DNA from: Alphaproteobacteria bacterium
Lineage (GTDB): Bacteria; Pseudomonadota; Alphaproteobacteria; CAAHEQ01; UBA3637
DNA: 61,129 nt
Direction: 5' to 3'
Assembly: GCA_017412085.1 (NCBI GenBank)
Contig: JAFPYS010000013.1
Coordinates: 1 to 61,129, forward strand
The notes below the pieces were generated by a model that ran no database searches, had not been told where the DNA came from, and saw nothing but the letters and a program-made list of their open reading frames with translations. Positions within the stretch are counted from its first letter, which is position 1; the number at the start of each line of letters is the position of its first letter. A program made the translations under genes and the position numbers. This document shows positions 8,659-58,267 of the stretch, in pieces.

Positions 8659-11400
8659 ATGTTAAAAATTAAGCAAAGCCCCCCCCCATCACAAAATAAT
8701 CGTTTAATTTCAAATGGTTATTCTGAGTCTGGCCGGACAATGCTTGAAACTCTTGGGGTGATTATCATCCTGATTGTTCTCACGATTGGTGGTATTAAGG
8801 GCTTTGGTTGGATGCGTGCAAATGCCGTTGCAAACAACCTGTTGGATCAAGTAATGGATATGGCCGTTTCTCGTCAAAACGAGTTATTGGGACGAAATTG
8901 GCGGCGACCAGAAGAAAACGATAAATATACCAAAGACGGTGTTCACGGCATCTCTGTTTCCGTTGAAAACGGCATTTCGGGAAACTTAAAAGATGTCTTT
9001 TGGGTAACGTTAGGCACTTCCGATTTTGGTGTGGACAAAAAGGTGTGCGAAACATTGCTTGAAAAGAAAGAGCAGCTTCAAAACACCAAATTACCGCTGC
9101 TGGCCATTACTGTCGGAAGTGTTCTGGTTACAAATGGAACACCCGAATGCCATGATCAAAATATCATCAACTTTATTTTTCCAAAAAATGCCCAAAAGAA
9201 TGGCGGTACCCCAAATATTATCATTAATCCGGTTATTGGGCCTGAGGACGAGCCACAGAATTGCGATGCAAGATTGTGTCCTGTGGGTGCAGAATGTAGT
9301 GGCAGCAAAATTACCTGTTTGCCAGGATATAAAATGGTACATGACGACAACTGTTCTTTGATTAACTGTGTCGCCTGCACGAATAACACCTATAATACCT
9401 CCCGCGACACAACAAACAGCGAATGTACGGAATGTCCAGATGGACAAATTACCACGGATCATCGTTCTTGTCATTGCGCTGCCGATGGCACTGCTTGTTC
9501 GGTTGGCGGATTCAGCGGTTATGTGGAAGATTGCCGCTGTGTTCAATGCACCAAGGACAGCCATTGTCATGGAAAATGTGAAGTGTGTCGCGGCGGTCTC
9601 TGTCAAGAATTGCCGGATGGATCGCACTGTTCAGATTGCACCTTCCCGACCCCATGTTGGAATGATCAATTGCAACAGTGCATTGTGTGTGATGGATCTT
9701 GCCTGAAAGACGCCGATTGCGATAACAACAAAACCTGCAATAAAAACACGCATTTATGTGAAGATACGCCAATTCCACCATGCGTTACCGATAATGACTG
9801 CAATACCTGCGAGGTATGTTCAGATGGTACTTGCGTGTCTGAACCAGATTGTACCCCGTGCACCGATAACACATCGTGTCCCGCCGGTCAAACCTGCGAC
9901 ACCACCAACAACAAATGCATTGATAATCCCCAATGCGGAGAAAACGCCACTTTGGTCGGAAATACTTGTCAATGTAACGCCGGCTATTACGGTGATGGAC
10001 AAACATGTACACAATGTACGGTCCCGTTAACCAGCGATGTTGGCGCAACAACGGCCAATGATTGTTATTGTCCGATGGGGTATTATTTACCACAAAAAAA
10101 CAATACAACAGACTGCTTCGAATGTCCCAATGGAAGCACTAGTGACACAAAAAATGCGACTATTTGTACTTGTACTATACCAAACTCACATTGGACAATT
10201 TATGATGAAGATTATGGAACTTGGGGTGACTGCAGATGTAATGCGGGATATTGGGGCAATCTTGACCTTACAGACGGAAGTTGTACCGCATGCCCACAGA
10301 ATATGACCAGCGATATCGAAAATAACTTTTCAGAAAACCAATGTTACTGCTTACCAAATTTTGTTGTTATACAGGGTAGCTGTGCCTTATGCCCTACAGA
10401 TAGTACATTAGTATACATTGAAAATGCGCGGTACTGCAACTGTACTGCCCCCGAAAAGATGTGGAACTATGCCACAAACCAATGCGAAACGGTGTGTGAT
10501 ATAAATGCAACCGTTTTGGATAAATTCATATTGCATCCACAATACGCCGCATGTGTATGTAACAATGGTTACTATGGAGATGGAAAAATTTCCGGAACTG
10601 GCTGCACATCATGCGGTGAAGGCGATGGATGGACAACTTTAGGAGGACGTTGTTTCTGCGATTATACCACACATTACACAAATACGGCGCTATCCGAATG
10701 TTGGTCATGTCCCGCAAACAGCACTCTAACTCGTACTAGTAACTCCGATGTTTATAATTCTTGTGCTTGCACTGAAAGTGAAAAAGTCTGGATCAGACAA
10801 ACTAATACTTGTGAATCCTGCCCCTCAGGAATAAAATCAATTCTGTTAGACGACGGAACATACACTTGCGTTTCTTTGACAGAACTTAATATTGATCAAA
10901 CGCATACCTATTGGATTGCCTCTGGATTGGGCGATAAAAGTGGGTTTACTTATAACGAAGCAGAGCGCATCTGTTCAGCCTATCAAAAAACTTTATTTGA
11001 CCCTCTATGCCATCCTGCCGCAAGTGCAGAACATTCGCCCGAAGGAGAACCATCAGTAATTAATAACAGTTATTATAAAATAACAAACGCTTATTATTGT
11101 AATACAAACTATTTTTGTACGCCCGCCCCATATTCGTGTTATGGAGAAACAATTGATTCAAGCTGTCATCAAAACCAATTAGTCGCTTCTTCGTGGATTG
11201 CAGGGATCCCTGAAGGCTTTTGGTGGGTCAAGACAACTTCAAGCACCGCCTGCAGTAGCAACAAAGCTTTTTATGTATATCCGATAGATGCTAGTTTTCT
11301 TAACGCGGGAGATATAGAAGTAAGTTTTGGGGGATACGCCTTTCACGTCAACAGTGGTCCAAAAAGTTCTGACATGCGTGTACTTTGTAAAAATTATTAA
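8659..11400 (+). CDS. Large Cys-rich protein with prepilin-like N-terminus (possibly phase-variable)
   Basis: I recognise the N-terminal signal, not a named family. The 913 residues begin with a short leader ending SG25, then RTMLE with Glu at +5 and a hydrophobic helix to about residue 50, as in type IV prepilins cut after Gly. Residues 50-175 form a soluble head shared with the protein at 53555. A long region of EGF-like or growth-factor-receptor-like Cys pairs (for example CxCNAGYYGDGQTCTQC) runs to about residue 745. I count about 84 Cys in all. The last 160 residues have few Cys and end MRVLCKNY, reminiscent of lectin-like or FGE-like C-termini. The start is fixed by AGGAGA. Codons 7-10 hold nine consecutive C (8679-8687), a possible slippage site. 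It is probably exported, anchored by the N-terminal helix, and perhaps an adhesin; function is unproven. Confidence 0.85.
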   Translation: MLKIKQSPPPSQNNRLISNGYSESGRTMLETLGVIIILIVLTIGGIKGFGWMRANAVANNLLDQVMDMAVSRQNELLGRNWRRPEENDKYTKDGVHGISVSVENGISGNLKDVFWVTLGTSDFGVDKKVCETLLEKKEQLQNTKLPLLAITVGSVLVTNGTPECHDQNIINFIFPKNAQKNGGTPNIIINPVIGPEDEPQNCDARLCPVGAECSGSKITCLPGYKMVHDDNCSLINCVACTNNTYNTSRDTTNSECTECPDGQITTDHRSCHCAADGTACSVGGFSGYVEDCRCVQCTKDSHCHGKCEVCRGGLCQELPDGSHCSDCTFPTPCWNDQLQQCIVCDGSCLKDADCDNNKTCNKNTHLCEDTPIPPCVTDNDCNTCEVCSDGTCVSEPDCTPCTDNTSCPAGQTCDTTNNKCIDNPQCGENATLVGNTCQCNAGYYGDGQTCTQCTVPLTSDVGATTANDCYCPMGYYLPQKNNTTDCFECPNGSTSDTKNATICTCTIPNSHWTIYDEDYGTWGDCRCNAGYWGNLDLTDGSCTACPQNMTSDIENNFSENQCYCLPNFVVIQGSCALCPTDSTLVYIENARYCNCTAPEKMWNYATNQCETVCDINATVLDKFILHPQYAACVCNNGYYGDGKISGTGCTSCGEGDGWTTLGGRCFCDYTTHYTNTALSECWSCPANSTLTRTSNSDVYNSCACTESEKVWIRQTNTCESCPSGIKSILLDDGTYTCVSLTELNIDQTHTYWIASGLGDKSGFTYNEAERICSAYQKTLFDPLCHPAASAEHSPEGEPSVINNSYYKITNAYYCNTNYFCTPAPYSCYGETIDSSCHQNQLVASSWIAGIPEGFWWVKTTSSTACSSNKAFYVYPIDASFLNAGDIEVSFGGYAFHVNSGPKSSDMRVLCKNY
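8679..8687 (+). repeat. C9 homopolymer inside codons 7-10
   Basis: Nine C in a row, encoding part of Ser-Pro-Pro-Pro, lie 20 bases after the start codon. No other C or G run of this length was seen in the window. One-base slippage would shift the frame before the export signal. Confidence 0.9.
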
Positions 11401-11402
11401 CT

Positions 11403-11421
11403 GTGTTGTTTACTCCAACAC
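11403..11421. terminator. Possible hairpin between convergent genes
   Basis: GTGTTG (11403-11408) pairs with CAACAC (11416-11421) around a 7-base loop, between two convergent stop codons 9 bases apart. The T tracts are poor on both sides, so termination is uncertain. Confidence 0.35.
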
Positions 11422-13173
11422 GGCTTTAATGCGGCGCACGCCCGCAGAAGAAGATTCTTCCTTCAAGATCCGGAAGTGCCCTAAATCCCCTGTGTTCGTT
11501 GCGTGTGGACCGCCACATACCTCTTTGGACACGGTGCCGATGGTATAAACTTTCACTTTCTCGGCATCATATTTGTGGGTGAACAAGCCCAAAGCACCTT
11601 CAGCTTGCGCCTCGGCCAATGTCTTTTCTTCACAAACGACAGGAATCTTTTGTGCGATCACCTCGTTCACTTTTTCTTCCAAATATTTCAACTCTTCTGG
11701 CGTCATTTTGCGATCAAACGAAAAGTCAAAACGCATCCGTTCCGGCGTAATGTTGCTGCCTTTCTGACACACGGTTGGACCAAACATTTGACGCAAGATG
11801 GCCTGCATAATGTGTGTGGCTGTATGATAATGAGCCGATTTTTCAGAATGATCCGCCAAGCCGCCTTTGAACTTTTGCTCGGCCCCTTTACGGGACAATT
11901 CTTGATGCGCTTCATAACATTTATTAAAGCCGTCCACATCCACCTTCACATTGTGCTCGGCAGCAATTTCTTCTGTAAACTCCAACGGGAAGCCATAGGT
12001 ATCGTACAAATGGAAAGCCGTTTCGCCATCAATTTGTCCATTTTGGACGCGCGTCAAAACTTTATCCATCTCCTTCAAGCCGGCATTGATGGTGCGGTTG
12101 AACAATTGTTCTTCCTTTTCCAATTCAGCCATGATAAAGGCGCGATTGCGTTCCAATTCTGGGTAATAAGACTTATATTTGTTCACAACACATTCTGCTA
12201 ATTTAGCTAAAACAAAATCATTCACGTCCAACTTTTTCAAATTGCGAATAGCAATACGAATTAAACGGCGCAAAACATAACCTTGATCTGTGTTGCTGGG
12301 AGGAATTCCTTTATCGTCGCCCAAGATAAACACAGCCGCGCGCAGATGATCCAAAATTTTGCGGAAAGGCACAAGGTTTTCTTTATAATTTTTACCACTA
12401 ATTTCTTCCAGCTTCTTGCGGCAATCCTCAAAAACCTCTGTCATAAACACATCGCCTTCGCCATTTAAGAAAGCCAACGTGCGCTCCAATCCCATGCCTG
12501 TATCCACGTTTTTCTGAGATAACGGCTCCATGGATCCGTCTTTCTTTTTCAGGTATTGCATAAACACGTCATTCCACACTTCTGTGTATTTGCCACAGTT
12601 GCAGGAAGGATTGCAGTTTGGACCACAAGCGGGTTTGCCGTTATCAATAAACATTTCGGAATCTGGGCCACAAGGACCGCCGTCGGCCAATCCCCACCAG
12701 TTATCCTCTAAAAAGAAAATTTGGTTGTCATTCAACCCCTGAGCACGCCAAGCGGCCGCGGCCTCTTCATCCTTAGGAGCATTTTGATCTCCACAAAAAC
12801 ATGTGACGGCCAATTGCTCTTTTTTAAATCCCAATTTTTGGGTTAAAAATTCAAAACTCCAAGCAATCATTTCATTTTTAAAATAATCACCTAAAGACCA
12901 GTTACCCATCATTTCAAAGAACGTTAAGTGACAATGATCGCCCACTTCCGCAATATCATTTGTGCGAATACATTTTTGAATATCTGTAATGCGCTTACCT
13001 CCAGGATGTTTCTCGCCCATCAGATAAGGAACAAGCGGTTGCATTCCCGCGGTTGTAAACAGAACCGTTGCGTCATTTTCTGGCAACACGGAAGCTGAAG
13101 GAACTTCTATATGTCCTTTGGATTTAAAAAAGTCGATCCACAAATTACGCAGTTCATCATAAGTCATTGTCAT
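11410..13173 (-). CDS. alaS: Alanyl-tRNA synthetase, short form lacking the C-terminal domain
   Basis: Charges tRNA-Ala. The protein has 587 residues, against about 870 in usual bacterial AlaRS. The class II catalytic core is present (FTTAGMQPLVPYLMGEKHP, FFEMMGNWSLGDYF, KNVDTGMGLER), as is the editing site (HTATH and CGGPH, the zinc-binding histidines and cysteine). It ends at SSAGVRRIKAVLE, so the C-Ala oligomerisation domain is missing. The start at 13173 follows AAGGAGA; an upstream in-frame ATG would lie inside the promoter. The signature residues resemble the short AlaRS I recall from Patescibacteria rather than the alphaproteobacterial type (NAGMVQFK), suggesting horizontal replacement. 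Function as a working synthetase is very likely. Confidence 0.93.
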   Translation of the reverse strand: MTMTYDELRNLWIDFFKSKGHIEVPSASVLPENDATVLFTTAGMQPLVPYLMGEKHPGGKRITDIQKCIRTNDIAEVGDHCHLTFFEMMGNWSLGDYFKNEMIAWSFEFLTQKLGFKKEQLAVTCFCGDQNAPKDEEAAAAWRAQGLNDNQIFFLEDNWWGLADGGPCGPDSEMFIDNGKPACGPNCNPSCNCGKYTEVWNDVFMQYLKKKDGSMEPLSQKNVDTGMGLERTLAFLNGEGDVFMTEVFEDCRKKLEEISGKNYKENLVPFRKILDHLRAAVFILGDDKGIPPSNTDQGYVLRRLIRIAIRNLKKLDVNDFVLAKLAECVVNKYKSYYPELERNRAFIMAELEKEEQLFNRTINAGLKEMDKVLTRVQNGQIDGETAFHLYDTYGFPLEFTEEIAAEHNVKVDVDGFNKCYEAHQELSRKGAEQKFKGGLADHSEKSAHYHTATHIMQAILRQMFGPTVCQKGSNITPERMRFDFSFDRKMTPEELKYLEEKVNEVIAQKIPVVCEEKTLAEAQAEGALGLFTHKYDAEKVKVYTIGTVSKEVCGGPHATNTGDLGHFRILKEESSSAGVRRIKAVLE

Positions 13174-13204
13174 GTTTAATTCTCCTTTATTAAAAATTAG
13201 GGTT

Positions 13205-13233
13205 ATTCTATCAAAAAAACCTTGGAAAGTCAA
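13205..13233 (-). promoter_or_regulatory. Promoter of alaS
   Basis: TTGACT (13233-13228), 17 bases, TAGAAT (13210-13205) on the minus strand. Transcription would start near 13198, which rules out an alaS start at 13251. Confidence 0.75.
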
Positions 13234-13238
13234 GGTAT

Positions 13239-13267
13239 TTGACAAACGCAAAAAAGGAGTATAAAAT
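13239..13267 (+). promoter_or_regulatory. Promoter of the small lipoprotein gene
   Basis: TTGACA (13239-13244), 17 bases, TAAAAT (13262-13267). It is back to back with the alaS promoter, with 5 bases between the -35 boxes. Confidence 0.7.
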
Positions 13268-45001: not shown

Positions 45002-45030
45002 TTGCGTTTTTATGAACGAACGTGTATAAT
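45002..45030 (+). promoter_or_regulatory. Promoter of the FadL-type porin gene
   Basis: TTGCGT (45002-45007), 17 bases, TATAAT (45025-45030). Confidence 0.75.
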
Positions 45031-45066
45031 GCCTTTTGTAAACTTTTTAACAAAAGGAAAAACAAA

Positions 45067-46329
45067 ATGAAAAAAGTAATGAAAATAGCTTTATTATTGG
45101 GTGCTACCTTGGGCGTTTGTTCTGCTCAGGCTGGTAGTTACCAATTAAACGACTATTCTGTAACTGGTTTGGGTCGTTCTTATGCTGGACAAGGAATTGT
45201 TGGCGACGACTATTCTGCCATTGCGTTTAACCCAGCCGGTATGATGTTAATGGAGAGATCCGGTGTTCAACAAGTATTTAATATGATTAACTTGCGCGCG
45301 GATGTGGATGGTTTGGGCGCAAATGCTGGTAAGCATAAAAAGATGGACTTTTGGCAACCAGTTCCAGCGGGTTTTGCCCAATACAATGTGAACGATCGCT
45401 TCAAGCTTGGTGTTGGTATTTATGCGCCATTTGGTCTTAAGACACAATACGATAGCGGTTGGTATGGTTCCGATGCTGCTATTTTATCCAAATTAGACAT
45501 TGTGGATTTTAACTTGTCAGCAGCCTATAAAGTAACGGATCACCTGTCTCTGGGTGTGAGTGCAATTTTGCGTTACATCTACGGTCGGATGACACAAAGC
45601 GTTCCGTCAATGTTACCAGTTCCTGGTGTGGGATTGAGGCCAATTGGTGGTGGAGATATTAACTTCAACGTGCATGGTTGGACTCAAACAGCTGCTTTTG
45701 GTGCTATGTATGAAGTGAACAAAAACACACGTTTTGGTTTGTCCTATCGTTTGCGTTCTGCACAACGGGCAAAGGGACATTTTAAGGTTGGTGGCAATGC
45801 CAATCCGGCCTTAAATGGTAACTATACCGTTCGTGCAAATCCGGACTTGCCAGAATCCATCGCTTTATCAGCATATCATCGTTATAAGGATGTTGGGTTT
45901 TCTGGAACAGCGCGTTTTACGCACTGGACATCCTCATTTCCTAACTTTACTGTTAGATCTGATTGGCCGGGTTTAGCGCCTTCGGGTGGTGAAGAGAAAA
46001 AATATTACCACTATAAAAACAGTTGGACCTTAACGGGTGGCGTGGATTATTACTACTGTAAAAATTTGACCTTCCGTTTTGGGGGTGGTTGGGATGAAAG
46101 TCCGGCCCACGATGCAAGTCGTAGAACCATCCGTATTCCGGATAACGATCGTTGGTGGATGAGTGTGGGTGCCAGTTATATGAAAAACAACTGGCAGATC
46201 GATGTGGGCTATGCGCACATGATCGCAAAAACCGCTCGCGCCGAGGGTGATGCCGCGGTTAACGTGACGGCAAAATATAAGAACATGCAATCTCATATCT
46301 TGGGCGTGCAAGTTCAATATAAATTCTAA
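45067..46329 (+). CDS. FadL/OmpP1-family outer-membrane porin
   Basis: Likely hydrophobic-compound transporter of the outer membrane. The 420 residues have a signal peptide (MKKVMKIALLLGATLGVCSAQA, cut after residue 22). A FadL-type N-terminus follows with SVTGLGRSYAGQG and AIAFNPAGMM (the NPAGM motif), then alternating beta strands and a C-terminal Phe (VQYKF), as in outer-membrane barrels. The start at ATG 45067 follows AAAGGAA. A DUF378 gene lies 18 bases downstream in the same transcript. The substrate is unknown. Confidence 0.9.
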   Translation: MKKVMKIALLLGATLGVCSAQAGSYQLNDYSVTGLGRSYAGQGIVGDDYSAIAFNPAGMMLMERSGVQQVFNMINLRADVDGLGANAGKHKKMDFWQPVPAGFAQYNVNDRFKLGVGIYAPFGLKTQYDSGWYGSDAAILSKLDIVDFNLSAAYKVTDHLSLGVSAILRYIYGRMTQSVPSMLPVPGVGLRPIGGGDINFNVHGWTQTAAFGAMYEVNKNTRFGLSYRLRSAQRAKGHFKVGGNANPALNGNYTVRANPDLPESIALSAYHRYKDVGFSGTARFTHWTSSFPNFTVRSDWPGLAPSGGEEKKYYHYKNSWTLTGGVDYYYCKNLTFRFGGGWDESPAHDASRRTIRIPDNDRWWMSVGASYMKNNWQIDVGYAHMIAKTARAEGDAAVNVTAKYKNMQSHILGVQVQYKF

Positions 46330-46709: not shown

Positions 46710-47093
46710 ATGACAAATAATGAATCCGGCCGTTCAATGGTTGAAATGTTGGGCGTGTTAGCCATTATCGGCGTGTTATCCGTTGGTGGTATCGCTGGTT
46801 ACACAATGGCTATGAACAAACATAAAGCCAATAACTTGGTAGATTGTATTGCTAAAATGTCCATCGCCGCTCAAGTGAGCACAACAGCTACAGCTCCCAC
46901 ACAAACTGATTATTGTGCTGTCACAGACGTTGGAAACTGGGATATTACAGCAACCGCCACAACAGGAGCGATATCTCTAACTGCTGGAACAAACGCCTCA
47001 GCGGCCGCTTGTAAGGCAGCGAAAGATGCCATGGGTAACAAAGTTGGAAGCAATGGTCCAACCATTACATGGCCAACAACTGGTTGCTCGTAA
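46710..47093 (+). CDS. Small type IV pilin-like protein
   Basis: The 127 residues start MTNNESG, then RSMVEMLG, with the cut expected after Gly7 and Glu at +5 (E12). A hydrophobic helix (VLAIIGVLSVGGIAGYTMAM) follows, then a small Thr/Ala-rich globular part with four Cys (NNLVDCIAK, DYCAVTD, AACKAAK, TTGCS). The last two or three resemble a D-region disulphide loop of pilins. Position +1 is Arg rather than Phe. GAAAGGA precedes the ATG; a strong promoter and terminator make it a single unit. It may be the major pilin of a system whose other parts are elsewhere; no prepilin peptidase, PilB or PilC is in the window. Confidence 0.85.
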   Translation: MTNNESGRSMVEMLGVLAIIGVLSVGGIAGYTMAMNKHKANNLVDCIAKMSIAAQVSTTATAPTQTDYCAVTDVGNWDITATATTGAISLTAGTNASAAACKAAKDAMGNKVGSNGPTITWPTTGCS

Positions 47094-50789: not shown

Positions 50790-51083
50790 ATGCGTGCACC
50801 AATTTTAAAAGCTGTGGCAATGCCACCTCGTATTTTGTTAGCGCCATTTGTGCCAGCTATGGCCAACTTGGTGGTTCAGATTGCATGGATGTTTATCTTA
50901 ATTGGCGCACTTGATGTGAACCCAATCGTGTCTATCGTAACGATTTTATCGGGGCACGTTTTTTTGGTGATTGCAGGAACGCGGGAACCGCACCTATCAC
51001 ATATGATGCAAGCATGGGGAACCAATGGCCCGGCAATAAGCCGAAACATCTATAAATCTAAAGGAGTCAAGTTGGCTCCATGA
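50790..51083 (+). CDS. virB3: VirB3/TrbD-like type IV secretion membrane protein
   Basis: The 97 residues have a short polar start (MRAPILKAVAMPPRILLAPF), two close hydrophobic stretches (residues about 24-42 and 44-62) and the downstream TREPHLSHMM block. This fits the VirB3 family, small inner-membrane subunits next to VirB4. AGGAGA precedes the ATG. It is 11 bases before virB4. The identification rests on pattern and on virB4 directly after it. Confidence 0.75.
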   Translation: MRAPILKAVAMPPRILLAPFVPAMANLVVQIAWMFILIGALDVNPIVSIVTILSGHVFLVIAGTREPHLSHMMQAWGTNGPAISRNIYKSKGVKLAP

Positions 51084-51094
51084 AAAGGGAATAA

Positions 51095-53536
51095 ATGAAC
51101 AATATAGATGCGAACATAGTTGATTTTATTCTGACAAGCGCAACATCGGTCCCGATGATTTTGGCGGTGTTGGGGTTAATCTCGGCCATTTTGTTGGCCT
51201 TTGCATCTGTGACAAAAATCGGCGAATGGGTTTTGCCCAAACCCAAAGAAACGCGTTTATCAGACTTTTTACCCTTTGAAAAACTGGATGAGGATGGGGC
51301 AACTATCCATTTAAGAAATGGTGCCTTGGCGCGCGTTTTCGAGGTCAAGGGTGTGGATAGTACGTTGATGCCGCCAGAGGATCGGATGACATTGACCAAC
51401 GCCCGCAAAAGGTGGATTGATTCAATGGCAGAGTTGGAAATTGTTGTTCGCATGATAACTGTTCGCGATAAAGTGCGGTTGGACACAATGGAGGCGTTTG
51501 AGGACAATAAATTATTGCATCAGATTGATGAGTTATGGATGGAAAATATGCATCGGATATTTAAAAACCATCACTACATTGTGCTCGGAGTTAATGATCG
51601 GCGAGAGGCGATGCGGGATTTAGATCAAGCATGTAACGCTTTGACGGCTATCTTGGATATGTATAATCCCGTTCTTCTTACAGAACGAGAAGGGGTTAAC
51701 CAGGAAGATAAAAGTCCTTTATGGTTGTTTGCACGGTTGGCAAGTCCTTTATCACGCCCCAAGCCTTTGATTCACGGAGAGCAGGGCGATTATTTAAACG
51801 TTTTATTAACGTCAGACTATGTGCATTTTACCAAAGACGAAGGTATTGTACGTTTTTTTGCGGGCGATCGTGAAAAGTTGGCCATCATGATGGGGATTCG
51901 TAAGCCCGGCGACTTCATGGATGAACAAATGGTGGCGGATTTGTTAAGTATTGATATGGAAATGACGTTTTTGCACAATATAAAGGCCGTACCAATGTCT
52001 AAGTCAACTGCCCTGCTGGTTAACCAGCGCAGAATGGCTGCGGTTACTAGTTTTTCTCAGAACGTGTATGACCAATATAATGAGGCTTTAGCATCATTGG
52101 ATGCAACAGATGCCGACAGCCAAACGCTGAACGAGTATGCAATGTCCATTATTTTATATGGTGACTCGGCAGAAGAGCTAAAGTTTGGGCAAGAAGAGGT
52201 GGAGCGCATTTGTCGTATTCATAACGTGACGCCAGTTAGAGAAGGTTGGTCTGCACAAGCGGTGTTCTTTAATCAATTTCCAACATATGATGTTTACCCG
52301 AGAACTTATTTGTATCTTTCCAATGTGGTGGCGTGCGCAACGATGATTGATCAGCCATCGGAAGGTCGCAAGAAATCTGACTGGGGACCAGTGCCTTTGG
52401 CCTATTTTAGAACAATTACGGGTACGCCATATGCCTTCCAATTTCACGTTAGCGAAGAACCTTATGCGGTGGCGCACACGGCTTTGATCGGTCCAACTGG
52501 TCAAGGTAAAACAACATTTTTCAGCTTTATTGCTTCGCAAGCTATGCGTATTCCGGATTTGCACACATACTTTTTTGATCGCAATAAGGGTGCTAAGGTT
52601 TTTGCGGTGGTTAACGGGGCGCCGTATATTAAGTTTGATGGCGAAGATTCTGTGTCATTAAATCCGTTTTTGATTGAAGATAATTTGCCCAACAGAGCTT
52701 TCTTGCGCGGGTGGTTGCGGGATATCACCGAAGGTAAAGATGCTGTGTCAGAAACGGAAATTGCACGCGCGGTAACAACGGCATTTGAATATTTGCCGAA
52801 AAGTGATCGTATGTTAAAGAATTTGTATAAAGCATGTTTTGCGCCTAATGGCTATATGCGTCGAGAATTAAATCGATGGATTGATCCGGATCAATATGGA
52901 AACATCTTCAATTCGCCAGAAGATAATTTGGATTTGTCCAACCGTTACGTTGCCTTTGATTTTACGAGCATTTTTAATGATAGCAATAAATCGTTGGCCC
53001 CCGCTGTGATCAGTTACATCATGCACCGTATTGACGAAATAGCAAGTTCAACAGGGGCGCCTAGTATGGTTATGATCGATGAAACGGCGCCTATGTTAGA
53101 GCACCCAATGTTTAAAGAAAGTTTTATCGTGGGCTTGCGAGAAGGCCGTAAGAAACGTCAAGCGTATCTGTGTGCGTTCCAGCAACCAAAGTTCTTAGAT
53201 GAAGCGGGCTTGGGGGATGTAATCCGCGGCCAATGTCAAACGGTTATTTTCTTCCGAAATCCACAGGCGAATCCATCCGATTATGCTACATGGAACCTGA
53301 CGCCGCGCGAATTGAATTTTATTCTGGGCAAAGAATGGGCAGACAGCAAATATGCTATTTTGGTCAGCCGTCCGGCCATCCATGAATCCGTGATTTTAGA
53401 CATTGATTTATCTGGATTGGGACCGTATTTAAAGGTTTATTCGTCGGGTAGTAAAAACATTATATTGGCCGAAAAATTACAATCTGAGATAACAGATACA
53501 GACCAATTGGTGCAAGAATATTTAAAACGAGCTTAG
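51095..53536 (+). CDS. virB4: VirB4-type secretion ATPase
   Basis: Hexameric ATPase that powers type IV secretion or pilus assembly. The 813 residues have a hydrophobic N-terminal helix (about 20-40), the N-terminal VirB4 domain, Walker A GPTGQGKTT (466-474) and Walker B VMIDE (D662-E663), followed by EGRKKRQAYLCAFQQPKFL and the C-terminal motifs of the family. The VirB3-then-VirB4 order is classic, but no VirB6, VirB8, VirB9, VirB10, VirB11 or VirD4 is in the window. The next gene, 18 bases on, is the giant Cys-rich protein, an unusual partner. Confidence 0.92.
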   Translation: MNNIDANIVDFILTSATSVPMILAVLGLISAILLAFASVTKIGEWVLPKPKETRLSDFLPFEKLDEDGATIHLRNGALARVFEVKGVDSTLMPPEDRMTLTNARKRWIDSMAELEIVVRMITVRDKVRLDTMEAFEDNKLLHQIDELWMENMHRIFKNHHYIVLGVNDRREAMRDLDQACNALTAILDMYNPVLLTEREGVNQEDKSPLWLFARLASPLSRPKPLIHGEQGDYLNVLLTSDYVHFTKDEGIVRFFAGDREKLAIMMGIRKPGDFMDEQMVADLLSIDMEMTFLHNIKAVPMSKSTALLVNQRRMAAVTSFSQNVYDQYNEALASLDATDADSQTLNEYAMSIILYGDSAEELKFGQEEVERICRIHNVTPVREGWSAQAVFFNQFPTYDVYPRTYLYLSNVVACATMIDQPSEGRKKSDWGPVPLAYFRTITGTPYAFQFHVSEEPYAVAHTALIGPTGQGKTTFFSFIASQAMRIPDLHTYFFDRNKGAKVFAVVNGAPYIKFDGEDSVSLNPFLIEDNLPNRAFLRGWLRDITEGKDAVSETEIARAVTTAFEYLPKSDRMLKNLYKACFAPNGYMRRELNRWIDPDQYGNIFNSPEDNLDLSNRYVAFDFTSIFNDSNKSLAPAVISYIMHRIDEIASSTGAPSMVMIDETAPMLEHPMFKESFIVGLREGRKKRQAYLCAFQQPKFLDEAGLGDVIRGQCQTVIFFRNPQANPSDYATWNLTPRELNFILGKEWADSKYAILVSRPAIHESVILDIDLSGLGPYLKVYSSGSKNIILAEKLQSEITDTDQLVQEYLKRA

Positions 53537-53554: not shown

Positions 53555-56500
53555 ATGAAACAACGTAAAAAAACATTAAAAATAGAATCCGGCCGCAGCA
53601 TGTTGGAAATGCTGGGTGTTTTGGTGTTGTTGGTGATTTTAACGTTGGGCGGCGTCATGGTTTTTAGTATGGTTTATACCAACGTTGTGTCAAAGGCGTT
53701 GACGGACAGCGTGGTTACGCAAGCGTCCATTCGGCGTCATGACCATATGCGGAAAGTGATTGAGCGTGATGGTAATGTGTTGGATATAGAGGGTCCCTAT
53801 GGATATCCCATTCATGTGGAAGATGGTATGGAAGGCACTTTGGAAAATACATTTTGGGTCAGCGTGTCTTTGTCGGAATCTTACTTTCAAAAGAAGCTGT
53901 GTGACAAATTGTTGGGGCGCAGTGATGACTTGAAAAAAGTCCAAGAGGACTCAACTGATTTAGACGCAAATGAAACACATTGGCTTGGATTTATTGAGTT
54001 GTATGTCAACGATGAAGTGGTGGAAGATTGTAGCGAAGATGTTACTGGCGTTCGGTATGTTTTTGCAAAAAAAGGAAATGGTTTGGTTGATGATATAGAT
54101 GTATGTTTGCCGGGATGTCCACGGCGTTTGTGTCCACAAGGGGCAACATGTGCGGGGGCAACGTGCGAAGAGCGAACAATTACCTGTAATCCCGGGTATA
54201 AAAAAGTAAATGCGGGAACGTGTAAAGAGTCGTGTCAAAAGTGTGTAAGTCGTGAAGTTTGTCCGCCGGATGAGCCGCCGTATGAGTGTCCTGAAGGCAC
54301 AAAGCCAAATGAGAAACATACAGATTGTCCCTGCTGTAATCCAGCGGATAGCCCAGAAGAATGTGGTTGTACGGCGCCACTTTCCCCAAACAGCGAGTGT
54401 GGTTGCGGATGTACAACAGATGAAGATTGTTATGGAAATAGAAGGTGCGATCCTATCACTCGCACATGTCCATGCGAAAAGAAAACATGTAAAACATCAG
54501 AGTCTTGGAACAATAAAACATGTCGGTGTGAATCGCCCATCAGAAAGCCGTGTAAAGAAGACTCTGATTGTCCGGAGGGATGGCGGTGTCCAGACAGTGA
54601 GCCAAAAGAATGTGTGCCGGAATGCGAAGAAGATTCCGATTGTCCGTACGGATGGAAGTGTCCAGACAGCGAACCAAAGATTTGTACGCCCACCGAGTGC
54701 GAGAAAGATGAAGACTGTGAAAAAGGGATGATTTGTAATCCGGAAAAGAAGATTTGTGAGCCCAAGCCATGCGAAGAAGATAAAGATTGCGAAGGCAACA
54801 TGGTTTGTGATCCGAAAACAAAAACATGTACATGTCCCGATGGTGCCACACCGATTAGCGATAAGCCGTGCGATTGTGCGGAAAATCAATATCTTGCCGA
54901 AGATGGGCGGGCTTGTTTGGATTGTACAACGGACGCAACAGCCGAAGCAGGAGTCAATGAATGCACCTGTACGGATGCGGCGCGAACGTGGAACAAAGTA
55001 AACAACACTTGTTTACAGCTAGAATGTGCATATCTTCCGAAAATAGACTCAACCCCTTGGACGGCGGAAGATGTGCGCAATGTTTGTAGCGAAGCCCAAA
55101 TAACCATACCATCAGATTGGCGGTTGTTACTGCCGGGATGGATGTTGAATAGTATCTGTCTTTCTCGTCATAGTGCGACAGCGGTTATGTTAAGCCGCCT
55201 AGAATTTAATGATTCATGTTTATATGAAGCAGGCGAAAGAAGGGGAAGTGCTTCATATCCTCAGAACTTGTATGTGCCAACCATAGCCGAGTCCTCGTGG
55301 TGTGTTTGTCCTGCGTCCGCAGTAGACGGTATTGATGTGCCACAAAGTGCCAACCCCGATTATATTTTGACAGAAGAAATTCAGGCAACATGTCAACTCT
55401 TTGATTTATGGGGGAAAGTGTCGGCCTGTAGTTGGACATTCTCAAATGGTCATCATTCGGCCTTTGGTTCTGTTGGAGCAAATGGTCGGTATACGTTGGA
55501 AGGATATGTATCCACACACGGCTTTTGTGGCAACTGTGATTCCGATTGTGATTGTCCTAAAAATCATAAATGTTACGCCCATTATTGCCACTGTGACAAT
55601 GGTTGGAAACTATTAGAGAAGGCGTGCCAGCCGTGTGTAGAGGGAGATGCTTCTTGTTGTCCGGCGGGACAAGTGGCCACTGGTCGTGGTGGTTGTGTAA
55701 ACTGTGCCAATGGTGATTGTTCGTGCAAAATCACAGGAACAGAGTCGCATATAGATATTGAAAGAGGAGGTTCTTTGCCCTGCGCAGGACTGCAGCGTTA
55801 TGTGTGCCGGGATCGAGGTTGTAACGCTGGTTGTACGTGCCAACGAACAACTTGTGCAACGGGAACAGTGGATGTCGGCGGGGAATGTTGTGATGAGGAT
55901 AAAGTTGTGGTTGACGGATCAATCCAAGAGTGTTGTAAAGGAACCGTCTTTACCAACAATTTGGGATCACAAGAATGTTGTCCAGAAGGTAAAACGGTAC
56001 AAGATGGCGAATGTGTGGATATGCCGTGTCCAGAAGATCCTAACCACGTGGCGGCTGCGTCATATGATGCGGAAACAGATACATGTTGTGGCACAAATGG
56101 ATTGGCGTACGACGGGGAATATTACAGCACCTTGAATGCAGAAGTTTGTGGATGTCCAAATGGCGGAACAAAAACAGGCTCTGGTGCGTATGCATATTGC
56201 TGCAAGAATGGTTCTCAGTGGTCACCATATTGTATACCAGATAATACTAATCGTCCAGGTACATCCGAGGATGGTTATTGTATTTCTGGCGGTTGTGGTT
56301 GTCCTCCGGGGACTACGTCAGCATTGAAGAACTATTCTGGATGTTGTGATAGCAGCGGCCATTATGACTCGGCGCCAGGTCTTTGGAGGTTTGAAGGGCA
56401 AGCTGCCGAGGCTTGTGGTGCCTGCCCTGTTGAAGGAACATATACAGAAGCCAATGGTTCAAGTGCTTGCTGTAACGAAAACGGCAAAGATGTTAACATT

Positions 56501-58267
56501 GCGGCTGGATTATTCCCCGGTGGCAGTTATTATTATCGCGAAGAAGTAGAATCGGCGCTTTGTTGCCCGGGTGGATATGAGGATAGTGCAAACAGTAGTG
56601 ATCGTATTTGTTGCGCGGTTGATGGAGGTGGCAACAGAACAGGAAAAGATATGCAGGGGAATAATGATATTGCCTGTGGTTGTCCATCGGGATCATCAGA
56701 AGTGGATTGCGGCGGCGATGCGCCGGCTTGTTGCCAAGTAAATGAAAATGGCGATCTGACGGGAAGGAACTTAGAGGGCGAGTATGCCAGTTGTTGTTGT
56801 GAGGCCGCCTATGGTACGATGGTAGATGGCTATAATGTTTGCTGTTTGATGGGAAGTGGCATGGAGACGGATGGTACCGCCAATGTGTGTGCATGCGGTT
56901 GTCCCAGTGTCACAAACTTTTTTACTCCTACGGAGGATACTACTCATAACGCCCCAGAAGAGTGTGAGATATGTTGTAGCCAGGAAGTTCCCGGGCACGA
57001 ACTAAACTGGAGGAAAGCCTTCGCGAATTCCTCACCTGGTGATTTTACTATGAGGTATCTCTGGAATCCCCAATCTTGTGGTTGTCCATACGGAGGGCAT
57101 TTTGGTAACGACGGAACAACTTGCTGCAGCGAAGATAATCAGGCATGGTCAGAGGAGTGTGTGAACACTGCCGAAGGGAGCATGGATTTAAGAGGATCAG
57201 GCTGTTACTACGATATATTGCCATCTATTTGCGGATGTTATGCGGGTTCAACGGAATCTAGCGATGGCGGTTGTTGTTTGGATGGATATTATAACCCACC
57301 AGACAGACATACCGGCTTTGGCGAAATTAATCCAGAACAATGTCATGCTTGTCCAAATGGGTTTGGATTGACGTATACAGTTGGTGACCACGGAGCAGAA
57401 GCATGTTGTGATGGCATGGGATATGCTGCCCTAAGTGGTGATATATCAGAGTTGACGGTTGAACAATCATCCATTTGTTGTCCAAGTAATGTGTATACAT
57501 ATGGGGGTTCGTGTTGTGCACAAAATGCTAAGGGCGATTTGACTGGATATAATCTAAGCGGGCAATTTGATTCTGAATGTGGTTGTCCCGCTGGCAGCAC
57601 CTTGACAGAACGAAATGGAGACCAAGCCTGTTGTGATGATAACGCCATTGGTTATGATACTATGGGAAATTTGAACACAATCTGTGGCTGCCCAGACGGG
57701 AATACGTTAATAGAAAATGTATGCTGTGATGATGCAAGACCAGCATATGATATGTCGGGAAGTTTAAATCCAGTATGTGGTTGTCCAGACGGTTCTGAAA
57801 AAAGAAATGGTGTTTGTTGCTCTCTTGCACAACCGGGCAGAAATGTTGCGGGAGTCGCTGTAATGGCCTGTTGTCCAGAGGAAAATAAAGTTTGTGCAAG
57901 CTCTGGTAATAGGAGCGACAAATGTGTGTGTAATGTAGAAAAGCCAAAGACGGCTTGTTCGTCTTATGCTTGTATTGCATGCGCATCCGATGAAATAGCA
58001 GTGTGTTCATCACAAGTTTATAGTACGCAAAATTATTCTAAGCCCTGCATTTGTTATAATTCAAGCACACAAGTTGGTGTGTGTTCAACAAATGGACAAT
58101 GCACAGTTTGTAATAAGCCGTTAAAAGCGAGATGTATAAATGAGGGTTGTGCATGCTATAACAGTTCAACTCAAAATGTGGGTTGTAACAGCTGGGCAGG
58201 TGGGTGCACCGTTTGTGATAAGCCTAAAACGGTGGATGCTCGGAACAAAAAATGCTTAGATCCTTAA
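53555..58267 (+). CDS. Giant Cys-rich protein with prepilin-like N-terminus
   Basis: I do not know this family. The 1570 residues start with a short leader ending ESG13, then RSMLEMLG with Glu at +5 (E18) and a hydrophobic helix to about residue 42. A head of roughly 130 residues resembles that of the protein at 8659 (GMEGTLENTFWVSVS matches GISGNLKDVFWVTLG), then a shared RRLCPQGATC block. The rest is Cys-dense: I count about 176 Cys (11%). Repeats include CPEGWRCPDSEPKEC/CPYGWKCPDSEPKIC near residues 333-380, and many CGCPxG...CC units after about 800. A Cys-poorer module (about 490-650) interrupts them. GGGGGA precedes the ATG. It is co-transcribed with virB3-virB4, probably exported and disulphide-bonded; a fibrous adhesin is possible. 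Confidence 0.88.
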   Translation: MKQRKKTLKIESGRSMLEMLGVLVLLVILTLGGVMVFSMVYTNVVSKALTDSVVTQASIRRHDHMRKVIERDGNVLDIEGPYGYPIHVEDGMEGTLENTFWVSVSLSESYFQKKLCDKLLGRSDDLKKVQEDSTDLDANETHWLGFIELYVNDEVVEDCSEDVTGVRYVFAKKGNGLVDDIDVCLPGCPRRLCPQGATCAGATCEERTITCNPGYKKVNAGTCKESCQKCVSREVCPPDEPPYECPEGTKPNEKHTDCPCCNPADSPEECGCTAPLSPNSECGCGCTTDEDCYGNRRCDPITRTCPCEKKTCKTSESWNNKTCRCESPIRKPCKEDSDCPEGWRCPDSEPKECVPECEEDSDCPYGWKCPDSEPKICTPTECEKDEDCEKGMICNPEKKICEPKPCEEDKDCEGNMVCDPKTKTCTCPDGATPISDKPCDCAENQYLAEDGRACLDCTTDATAEAGVNECTCTDAARTWNKVNNTCLQLECAYLPKIDSTPWTAEDVRNVCSEAQITIPSDWRLLLPGWMLNSICLSRHSATAVMLSRLEFNDSCLYEAGERRGSASYPQNLYVPTIAESSWCVCPASAVDGIDVPQSANPDYILTEEIQATCQLFDLWGKVSACSWTFSNGHHSAFGSVGANGRYTLEGYVSTHGFCGNCDSDCDCPKNHKCYAHYCHCDNGWKLLEKACQPCVEGDASCCPAGQVATGRGGCVNCANGDCSCKITGTESHIDIERGGSLPCAGLQRYVCRDRGCNAGCTCQRTTCATGTVDVGGECCDEDKVVVDGSIQECCKGTVFTNNLGSQECCPEGKTVQDGECVDMPCPEDPNHVAAASYDAETDTCCGTNGLAYDGEYYSTLNAEVCGCPNGGTKTGSGAYAYCCKNGSQWSPYCIPDNTNRPGTSEDGYCISGGCGCPPGTTSALKNYSGCCDSSGHYDSAPGLWRFEGQAAEACGACPVEGTYTEANGSSACCNENGKDVNIAAGLFPGGSYYYREEVESALCCPGGYEDSANSSDRICCAVDGGGNRTGKDMQGNNDIACGCPSGSSEVDCGGDAPACCQVNENGDLTGRNLEGEYASCCCEAAYGTMVDGYNVCCLMGSGMETDGTANVCACGCPSVTNFFTPTEDTTHNAPEECEICCSQEVPGHELNWRKAFANSSPGDFTMRYLWNPQSCGCPYGGHFGNDGTTCCSEDNQAWSEECVNTAEGSMDLRGSGCYYDILPSICGCYAGSTESSDGGCCLDGYYNPPDRHTGFGEINPEQCHACPNGFGLTYTVGDHGAEACCDGMGYAALSGDISELTVEQSSICCPSNVYTYGGSCCAQNAKGDLTGYNLSGQFDSECGCPAGSTLTERNGDQACCDDNAIGYDTMGNLNTICGCPDGNTLIENVCCDDARPAYDMSGSLNPVCGCPDGSEKRNGVCCSLAQPGRNVAGVAVMACCPEENKVCASSGNRSDKCVCNVEKPKTACSSYACIACASDEIAVCSSQVYSTQNYSKPCICYNSSTQVGVCSTNGQCTVCNKPLKARCINEGCACYNSSTQNVGCNSWAGGCTVCDKPKTVDARNKKCLDP

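Follow-up and report, generated by a model that had tools for sequence, protein, structure and literature searches.

The window analysed here, a stretch of 61,129 nucleotides taken as a whole, holds at 53555-58267 on the forward strand an intact open reading frame for a protein of 1570 residues with exactly 176 Cys. The protein joins a pilin-like head to a Cys-rich tail and has two relatives in the window, 8659 and 46710, named like 53555 by the first position of their genes. The features of the locus and of these relatives are listed below.

50790-51083, forward: putative VirB3, 97 aa (by position and size only; kept upstream of VirB4 in genome G004)
51095-53536, forward: VirB4-type ATPase, a neighbour outside the pilin system (TIGR00929, E=2.8e-103, under the model's curated cut-off)
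53555-58267, forward: Cys-rich modular prepilin (intact reading frame; head homology and structure)
53555-53593, forward: predicted class III leader peptide MKQRKKTLKIESG, cut after Gly13 (sequence; invariant G13, R14 and E18)
53588-53749, forward: predicted long alpha-1 helix, residues 12-65 (AlphaFold2 model, block pLDDT 78-95)
53555-54103, forward: pilin head module, residues 1-183 (alignments, AlphaFold2 model)
54104-55024, forward: Cys-rich region I, residues 184-490, with EB/WAP/EGF-like spacing (Cys density; sub-threshold Pfam EB and WAP)
55025-55534, forward: Cys-poor internal domain, residues 491-660, no family match (Cys density, Pfam search)
55535-57874, forward: Cys-rich region II, residues 661-1440 (Cys density; no Pfam match)
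57875-58264, forward: C-terminal Cys-rich repeats, residues 1441-1570 (sequence)
8659-11400, forward: Cys-rich modular prepilin paralogue, 913 aa with exactly 84 Cys (head homology, Cys count)
46710-47093, forward: small prepilin, 127 aa, with the same N-terminal cassette and a hypervariable remainder (sequence, alignment)

The Cys-rich prepilin and its paralogues

The leader of 53555 is basic, 13 residues long and ends in Gly; it is followed by R-S-M-L-E and about 20 hydrophobic residues. Cleavage after the Gly is predicted to give a mature protein starting RSMLE, with Arg at +1 and Glu at +5, as the first-pass annotation had read it. The usual type IV pilin residue at +1 is hydrophobic, whereas 53555 has Arg there. 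G13, R14 and E18 are invariant both among six aligned members from the genus and in an alignment of 25 pilins. The start SGR[ST]M[LV]E, seen from the outset as common to 53555, 8659 and 46710, occurs among the three as SGRSMLE, SGRTMLE and SGRSMVE.

After the long first helix, which spans 54 residues in the AlphaFold2 model (pLDDT 84.7, pTM 0.73), the head has a pilin-like strand order, with strands at 75-79, 85-90 and 99-105, a helix at 112-135 and strands at 146-151 and 165-171. It carries the conserved Cys116 and Cys159. The heads of 53555 and 8659 are 37% identical across 209 residues (E = 1.4e-23), and those of six genus members share 29 invariant columns. The homologous head first proposed for the two large proteins is thus borne out by alignment, and the approximate counts of 84 and 176 Cys prove to be exact.

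The head (residues 1-183) is followed by 1387 residues (184-1570) with 12% Cys, a module not specific to pili. Region II contains twelve degenerate C-x-CP...CC units between residues 865 and 1422, and neither TRF nor self-BLAST detects the tail's internal repeats, which have diverged too far. A PDB sequence search with the Cys-rich tail gave no match. The ectodomains had been described as EGF-like; matches to EB and WAP in 53555 and to EGF_3 in 8659 lend this weak support, as all lie below the Pfam cut-offs, and they are the only database domains matched in the extra modules of the two proteins.

The family is real but had been undercounted from one window as having three members, as a degenerate DNA pattern for GR[ST]M-x-EMLG finds at least 15 copies in the window's genome and none when the pattern is reversed as a control. 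The ten small pilins read in this genome have 122-167 aa, plus one of 198 aa, and five members are Cys-rich (1570 aa with 176 Cys, 1133 with 88, 913 with 84, 466 with 35 and 316 with 22). In eight aligned small pilins the first 32 residues are nearly invariant and the remainder is hypervariable. The DNA of their cassettes is on average 96% identical over the first 40 bases and falls to background level about 110-160 bases on, a pattern suggesting that the 5' end was recently duplicated or subject to gene conversion. The genes 53555 and 8659 look older because their codons differ in the 5' cassette. Pilin cassettes also seem to break assemblies in this family: the right end of contig G000:C1 overlaps the left end of G000:C11 (L053, L060) inside a pilin 5' cassette, so that two pilin genes stand head to head. 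A separate pilin-motif reading frame in L204 (G017:C44) ends 28 residues past the start of the motif and probably represents a disrupted pilin gene.

The C-terminal domain of 8659 is shared with several sister proteins, most of which have a W-W-x-A-x-x-F-C motif. As a lead, this domain may loosely resemble C-type lectins. Its profile weakly matches snake-venom C-type lectins (echicetin, E=0.026; botrocetin, E=0.13 and 0.27) and one member of the set weakly matches Pfam Lectin_C (E = 0.061), while the structure model of the 8659 domain has a pLDDT of 34.5, too low to use. A PHROGs search gave weak pilin matches for the small pilin 46710 and nothing for the large pilins. Next to 8659, at 11410-13251 on the reverse strand, lies an alanyl-tRNA synthetase-like reading frame with a TTG start and only 613 aa, shorter than is usual for the bacterial enzyme.

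Relationship of the head to type IVb pilins

The two generic models of the pilin N-terminus, PF07963 (N_methyl) and TIGR02532 (GFxxxE), have no match in 53555 or 8659, and 46710 scores under both curated cut-offs (16.1 bits against 21.2 and 12.1 against 16.3). Such a cut-off is a signature threshold and not a biological property, and the features behind it are present in 53555. Automated annotation would probably miss these pilins, most likely owing to the Arg at +1. Likewise, 53555 itself has no PilS or Bundlin match above the Pfam cut-offs and no PilV-type Pfam match.

The connection to pilins comes through relatives. Sister-genome proteins with the same N-terminus match PilS at 52 bits (cut-off 22) and Bundlin at 58 bits (cut-off 22.3), and a PDB search with their profile retrieves BfpA (1.4e-11) and PilS (3e-6). 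A profile of 25 pilins headed by 53555, a mixed one that includes some of the PilS- and Bundlin-matching sister pilins, finds TcpA (E=9e-5) and BfpA (E=2e-4). With the N-terminal part removed, pairwise hhalign comparisons link the genus heads to Cys-rich pilins of other lineages (E=5.9e-7), and these in turn to PilS-type pilins (E=4.3e-5); the direct comparison of the genus heads with PilS, again without the N-terminus, is not significant (E about 0.06). The genus heads alone match PDB pilins at the N-terminus only, and not significantly. A Foldseek search of the head against the PDB gave nothing at E<=0.001, with Clostridioides difficile PilW at rank 16 and S. typhi PilS at rank 38. The structure alignments of this analysis were put together by hand. 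Taken together, the N-terminus, the intermediates, the model and the pilus machinery described below make a strong case that the head is a pilin, and 53555, 8659 and 46710 belong to a type IVb prepilin family. The pilin-type anchor suggested by the first-pass annotation thereby gains support from relatives that match PilS and Bundlin above cut-off and from a head that models as a pilin.

Pilus machinery, distribution and divergence

The window's genome encodes one A24 prepilin peptidase (G000:C15:167.8 kb), and the enzyme is found in 40 of the 43 genomes from its taxonomic family, including 27 of 27 of good quality. The co-occurrence that had been proposed as a check is therefore present; neither a plain signal-anchor N-terminus nor a constant lack of the peptidase was found. 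The genome also has the following gene set on another contig.

Contig C18, L048:2741-11405: type IVb pilus operon (gene content by family models)

Besides an unassigned protein, this operon encodes a TcpQ-domain protein, a PilN-type secretin, PilO, a PilP-like protein, an ATPase of the T2SSE type and a T2SSF protein with two domains, with the genes from TcpQ to T2SSF at L048:3583-11405. PF10671, PF00263, PF06864, PF00437 and PF00482 score above their cut-offs, and TIGR02520 (PilN, E=5e-80) and TIGR03021 just under theirs. By these family models the set is that of an R64/TCP-like type IVb pilus. PilO is found in 38 of the 43 family genomes (26 of the 27 of good quality) and in 0 of 14 controls. 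The C18 pil operon stretch showed no pilin gene; the pilin genes are dispersed away from it. One family genome, G012 (98% complete), has 18 motif copies and the A24 peptidase and is without a PilO or T2SSF match, which means a gap in the assembly or else pilins that do without this machine.

As to disulphide formation, L053:16659-17498 encodes a membrane-anchored DsbA-like thioredoxin whose active site reads CGWC. A search of 11 genus genomes gave no DsbB, which leaves the route only partly explained. FadL/OMPP1-like outer-membrane proteins are encoded upstream of this DsbA-like gene (L053:15239-16564, assigned by eye from its likeness to the other) and just upstream of the small pilin 46710 (window 45022-46329).

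The motif pattern occurs in all 43 family genomes, with 1 to 86 copies each and none for the reversed control in any of the 43. These counts are lower bounds, as 4 of the 15 copies in the window's genome, and likewise many in the relatives, are less than 350 bases from where a contig stops. In a sample of the class, 22 of 385 genomes have the pattern, with high copy numbers in a few families. Scanning a collection of named genomes with a small-pilin profile gave at least 463 relatives, and for the best 79 loci almost every title reads Alphaproteobacteria, proteobacterium or Pseudomonadota, with many of them coming from animal guts; one of the 79 loci is labelled Gastranaerophilales, possibly by mistake. 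The majority of family members are small pilins, and a second class, in at least five genera, is Cys-rich and ranges from about 300 to more than 2300 aa. Stretches around motif copies in six further genomes revealed Cys-rich members in five of the six, which makes five genera counting the window's own. The largest member from these six has 1833 aa, counted from the motif, and 258 Cys. The longest of all, in G004, has at least 2367 aa and 283 Cys, and runs into the end of the contig stretch. In the literature searched, no publication describes prepilins from this lineage that are Cys-rich or end in a lectin.

Two other genomes have a Cys-rich pilin gene after VirB4, in the position of 53555: that of G004 encodes at least 2367 aa and that of G010 729 aa. 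VirB4 is 90-95% identical between the window's genome and these two, while the pilin proteins are about 30% identical overall (heads 42% in G004 and 32% in G010) and differ greatly in length, indicating that the pilin is evolving fast. Such low identity after a near-identical VirB4 is as expected of a fast-diverging surface adhesin.

Proposed function and its alternatives

We consider 53555 likely to be a modular minor pilin, an adhesin rich in disulphides and carried on a type IVb pilus, with which the cell probably holds on to partner or host cells by means of its pili. The A24 peptidase would cut the 13-residue leader after the Gly, and the long first helix and pilin head would then allow assembly by the R64/TCP-like machine of TcpQ-type protein, PilN secretin, PilO, PilP, ATPase and T2SSF protein. 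The tail of 1387 residues, presumably held by disulphides, would face the cell exterior, most likely from the tip of the pilus, and may there bind the surface of a partner or host. Beside the small fibre-type pilins, 53555 would be one of several interchangeable adhesive subunits encoded in the same genome. No ligand-binding domain was found among the domain matches of 53555, which counts against an adhesin, and a host-contact role is plausible.

An unlikely alternative is that 53555 serves as a pseudopilin-like membrane anchor that is not built into a pilus and whose tail stays periplasmic or attached to the cell. Its mature mass of 166 kDa, very large for a pilus subunit, and the absence of a gene of its kind from the pil operon stretch would suit such an anchor; however, the head retains pilin features, the secretin offers a route through the outer membrane, and large modular pilins are known on pili (PMC8179133). 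The pilin anchor might also be only a tether for a Cys-rich protein that mainly binds metal or buffers redox state. This we regard as very unlikely despite the very high Cys content of the tail, since the Cys spacing loosely resembles that of extracellular disulphide modules (EB, WAP, EGF_3 and TNFR-like, all sub-threshold), the tails vary strongly from species to species, and in some sister proteins the tail has a lectin-like domain at its end. It is hardly credible that 53555 is an ordinary signal-anchor protein unrelated to pilins: the failure of the N_methyl and GFxxxE models would be explained, but not the PilS- and Bundlin-matching relatives, the distribution of the peptidase and PilO, the head model or the profile links to pilins.

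The position of the gene raises a further possibility, that 53555 is a component of the VirB-type secretion system whose putative VirB3 and VirB4 are encoded just upstream. The gene begins on the same strand as VirB4 and 18 bases past it, an order kept in G004 and G010; the putative VirB3 gave no family match. VirB4 is present in 43 of 43 family genomes at about 60-95% identity, but among 30 VirB4 loci read, one of which was without downstream sequence, a pilin comes next only in the window's genome and G004, with G010 as the third known case. Because the pilin follows VirB4 in only these three, the link is local, and we reject a role in VirB secretion as highly improbable. Separately, the retention of VirB4 in every family genome hints that these reduced genomes have conserved a VirB-type secretion system.

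A modular minor pilin has precedents. The joining of a pilin anchor to a large module was initially thought non-standard, yet modular pilins, in which a pilin module is followed by a bulky C-terminal module, are an established class (PMC8179133). Like 53555, PilB and PilC of Streptococcus sanguinis have an N-terminal pilin module and a bulky non-pilin C-terminal module, and there the function is adhesion (PMC8179133, PMC9934059); the 53555 family differs in its type IVb machine and in Cys-rich proteins of up to more than 2300 aa. The case described as the most extreme multi-domain one in the survey of modular pilins has 860 residues and 12 copies of one motif (PMC8179133, PMC9934059). A motif-based survey of this kind would probably miss the 53555 family, whose N-terminus with Arg at +1 falls under the curated model.

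TcpA, BfpA and PilS are of the type IVb pilin sequence family, to which the profiles and relatives link the 53555 head, but are plain fibre pilins without a tail. CofB and TcpB are far smaller than 53555. Both belong to the large minor pilins of type IVb and sit at the tip of the pilus (CofB, PMC8179133; TcpB, PMC12075869), and CofB, unlike 53555, has beta-repeat and beta-sandwich modules and no Cys-rich tail (PMC8179133). CofB also illustrates that membership of the modular class does not need a database-defined domain (PMC8179133). PilV of the R64 and TP114 thin pili is a type IVb minor pilin whose variable C-terminus selects the surface recognised, and such variable-ended adhesins determine which cells are recognised (PMC9045228). 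The PilN, PilO, PilP, ATPase and T2SSF components of these pili are shared with the window's genome; in contrast to PilV, the variation here appears to be spread over separate dispersed genes and not one shufflon, and the composition of the 53555 tail is unrelated. The tips of the Kil Tad pili of Myxococcus likewise use several interchangeable sets of minor pilins with variable domains, specific combinations of which work against different prey (PMC12075869), but these belong to a Tad system, with gene clusters of three and different modules.

What is unusual in the 53555 family is its size, Cys content, Arg at +1, lineage-wide expansion in small genomes and fast divergence. The range of known modular pilins becomes wider with it, and a family carried by every genome tested in this lineage seems to escape the usual pilin motif models. 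More speculatively, this whole taxonomic family of gut alphaproteobacteria with reduced genomes may use one type IVb pilus as a multi-tool, in which the dispersed, fast-diverging pilins of each species, some of them giant Cys-rich adhesins of 1500 to more than 2300 residues, are swapped on one machine for docking on particular partner cells (bacteria, protists or gut epithelium) to obtain nutrients; we hold this as possible rather than likely. For gut alphaproteobacteria with genomes of about 1 Mb, order Rs-D84 (Enterousia) among them, a life as symbionts or parasites drawing metabolites from a partner has been proposed, and the 2025 study reports type IV pili for another lineage and makes no mention of them for Rs-D84 (PMC12306168). 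In class, size and the habitat of its relatives, the window's genome resembles those of Rs-D84. If it belongs to this order, the pilus and its set of adhesins would be a concrete candidate for the device by which such bacteria make contact.
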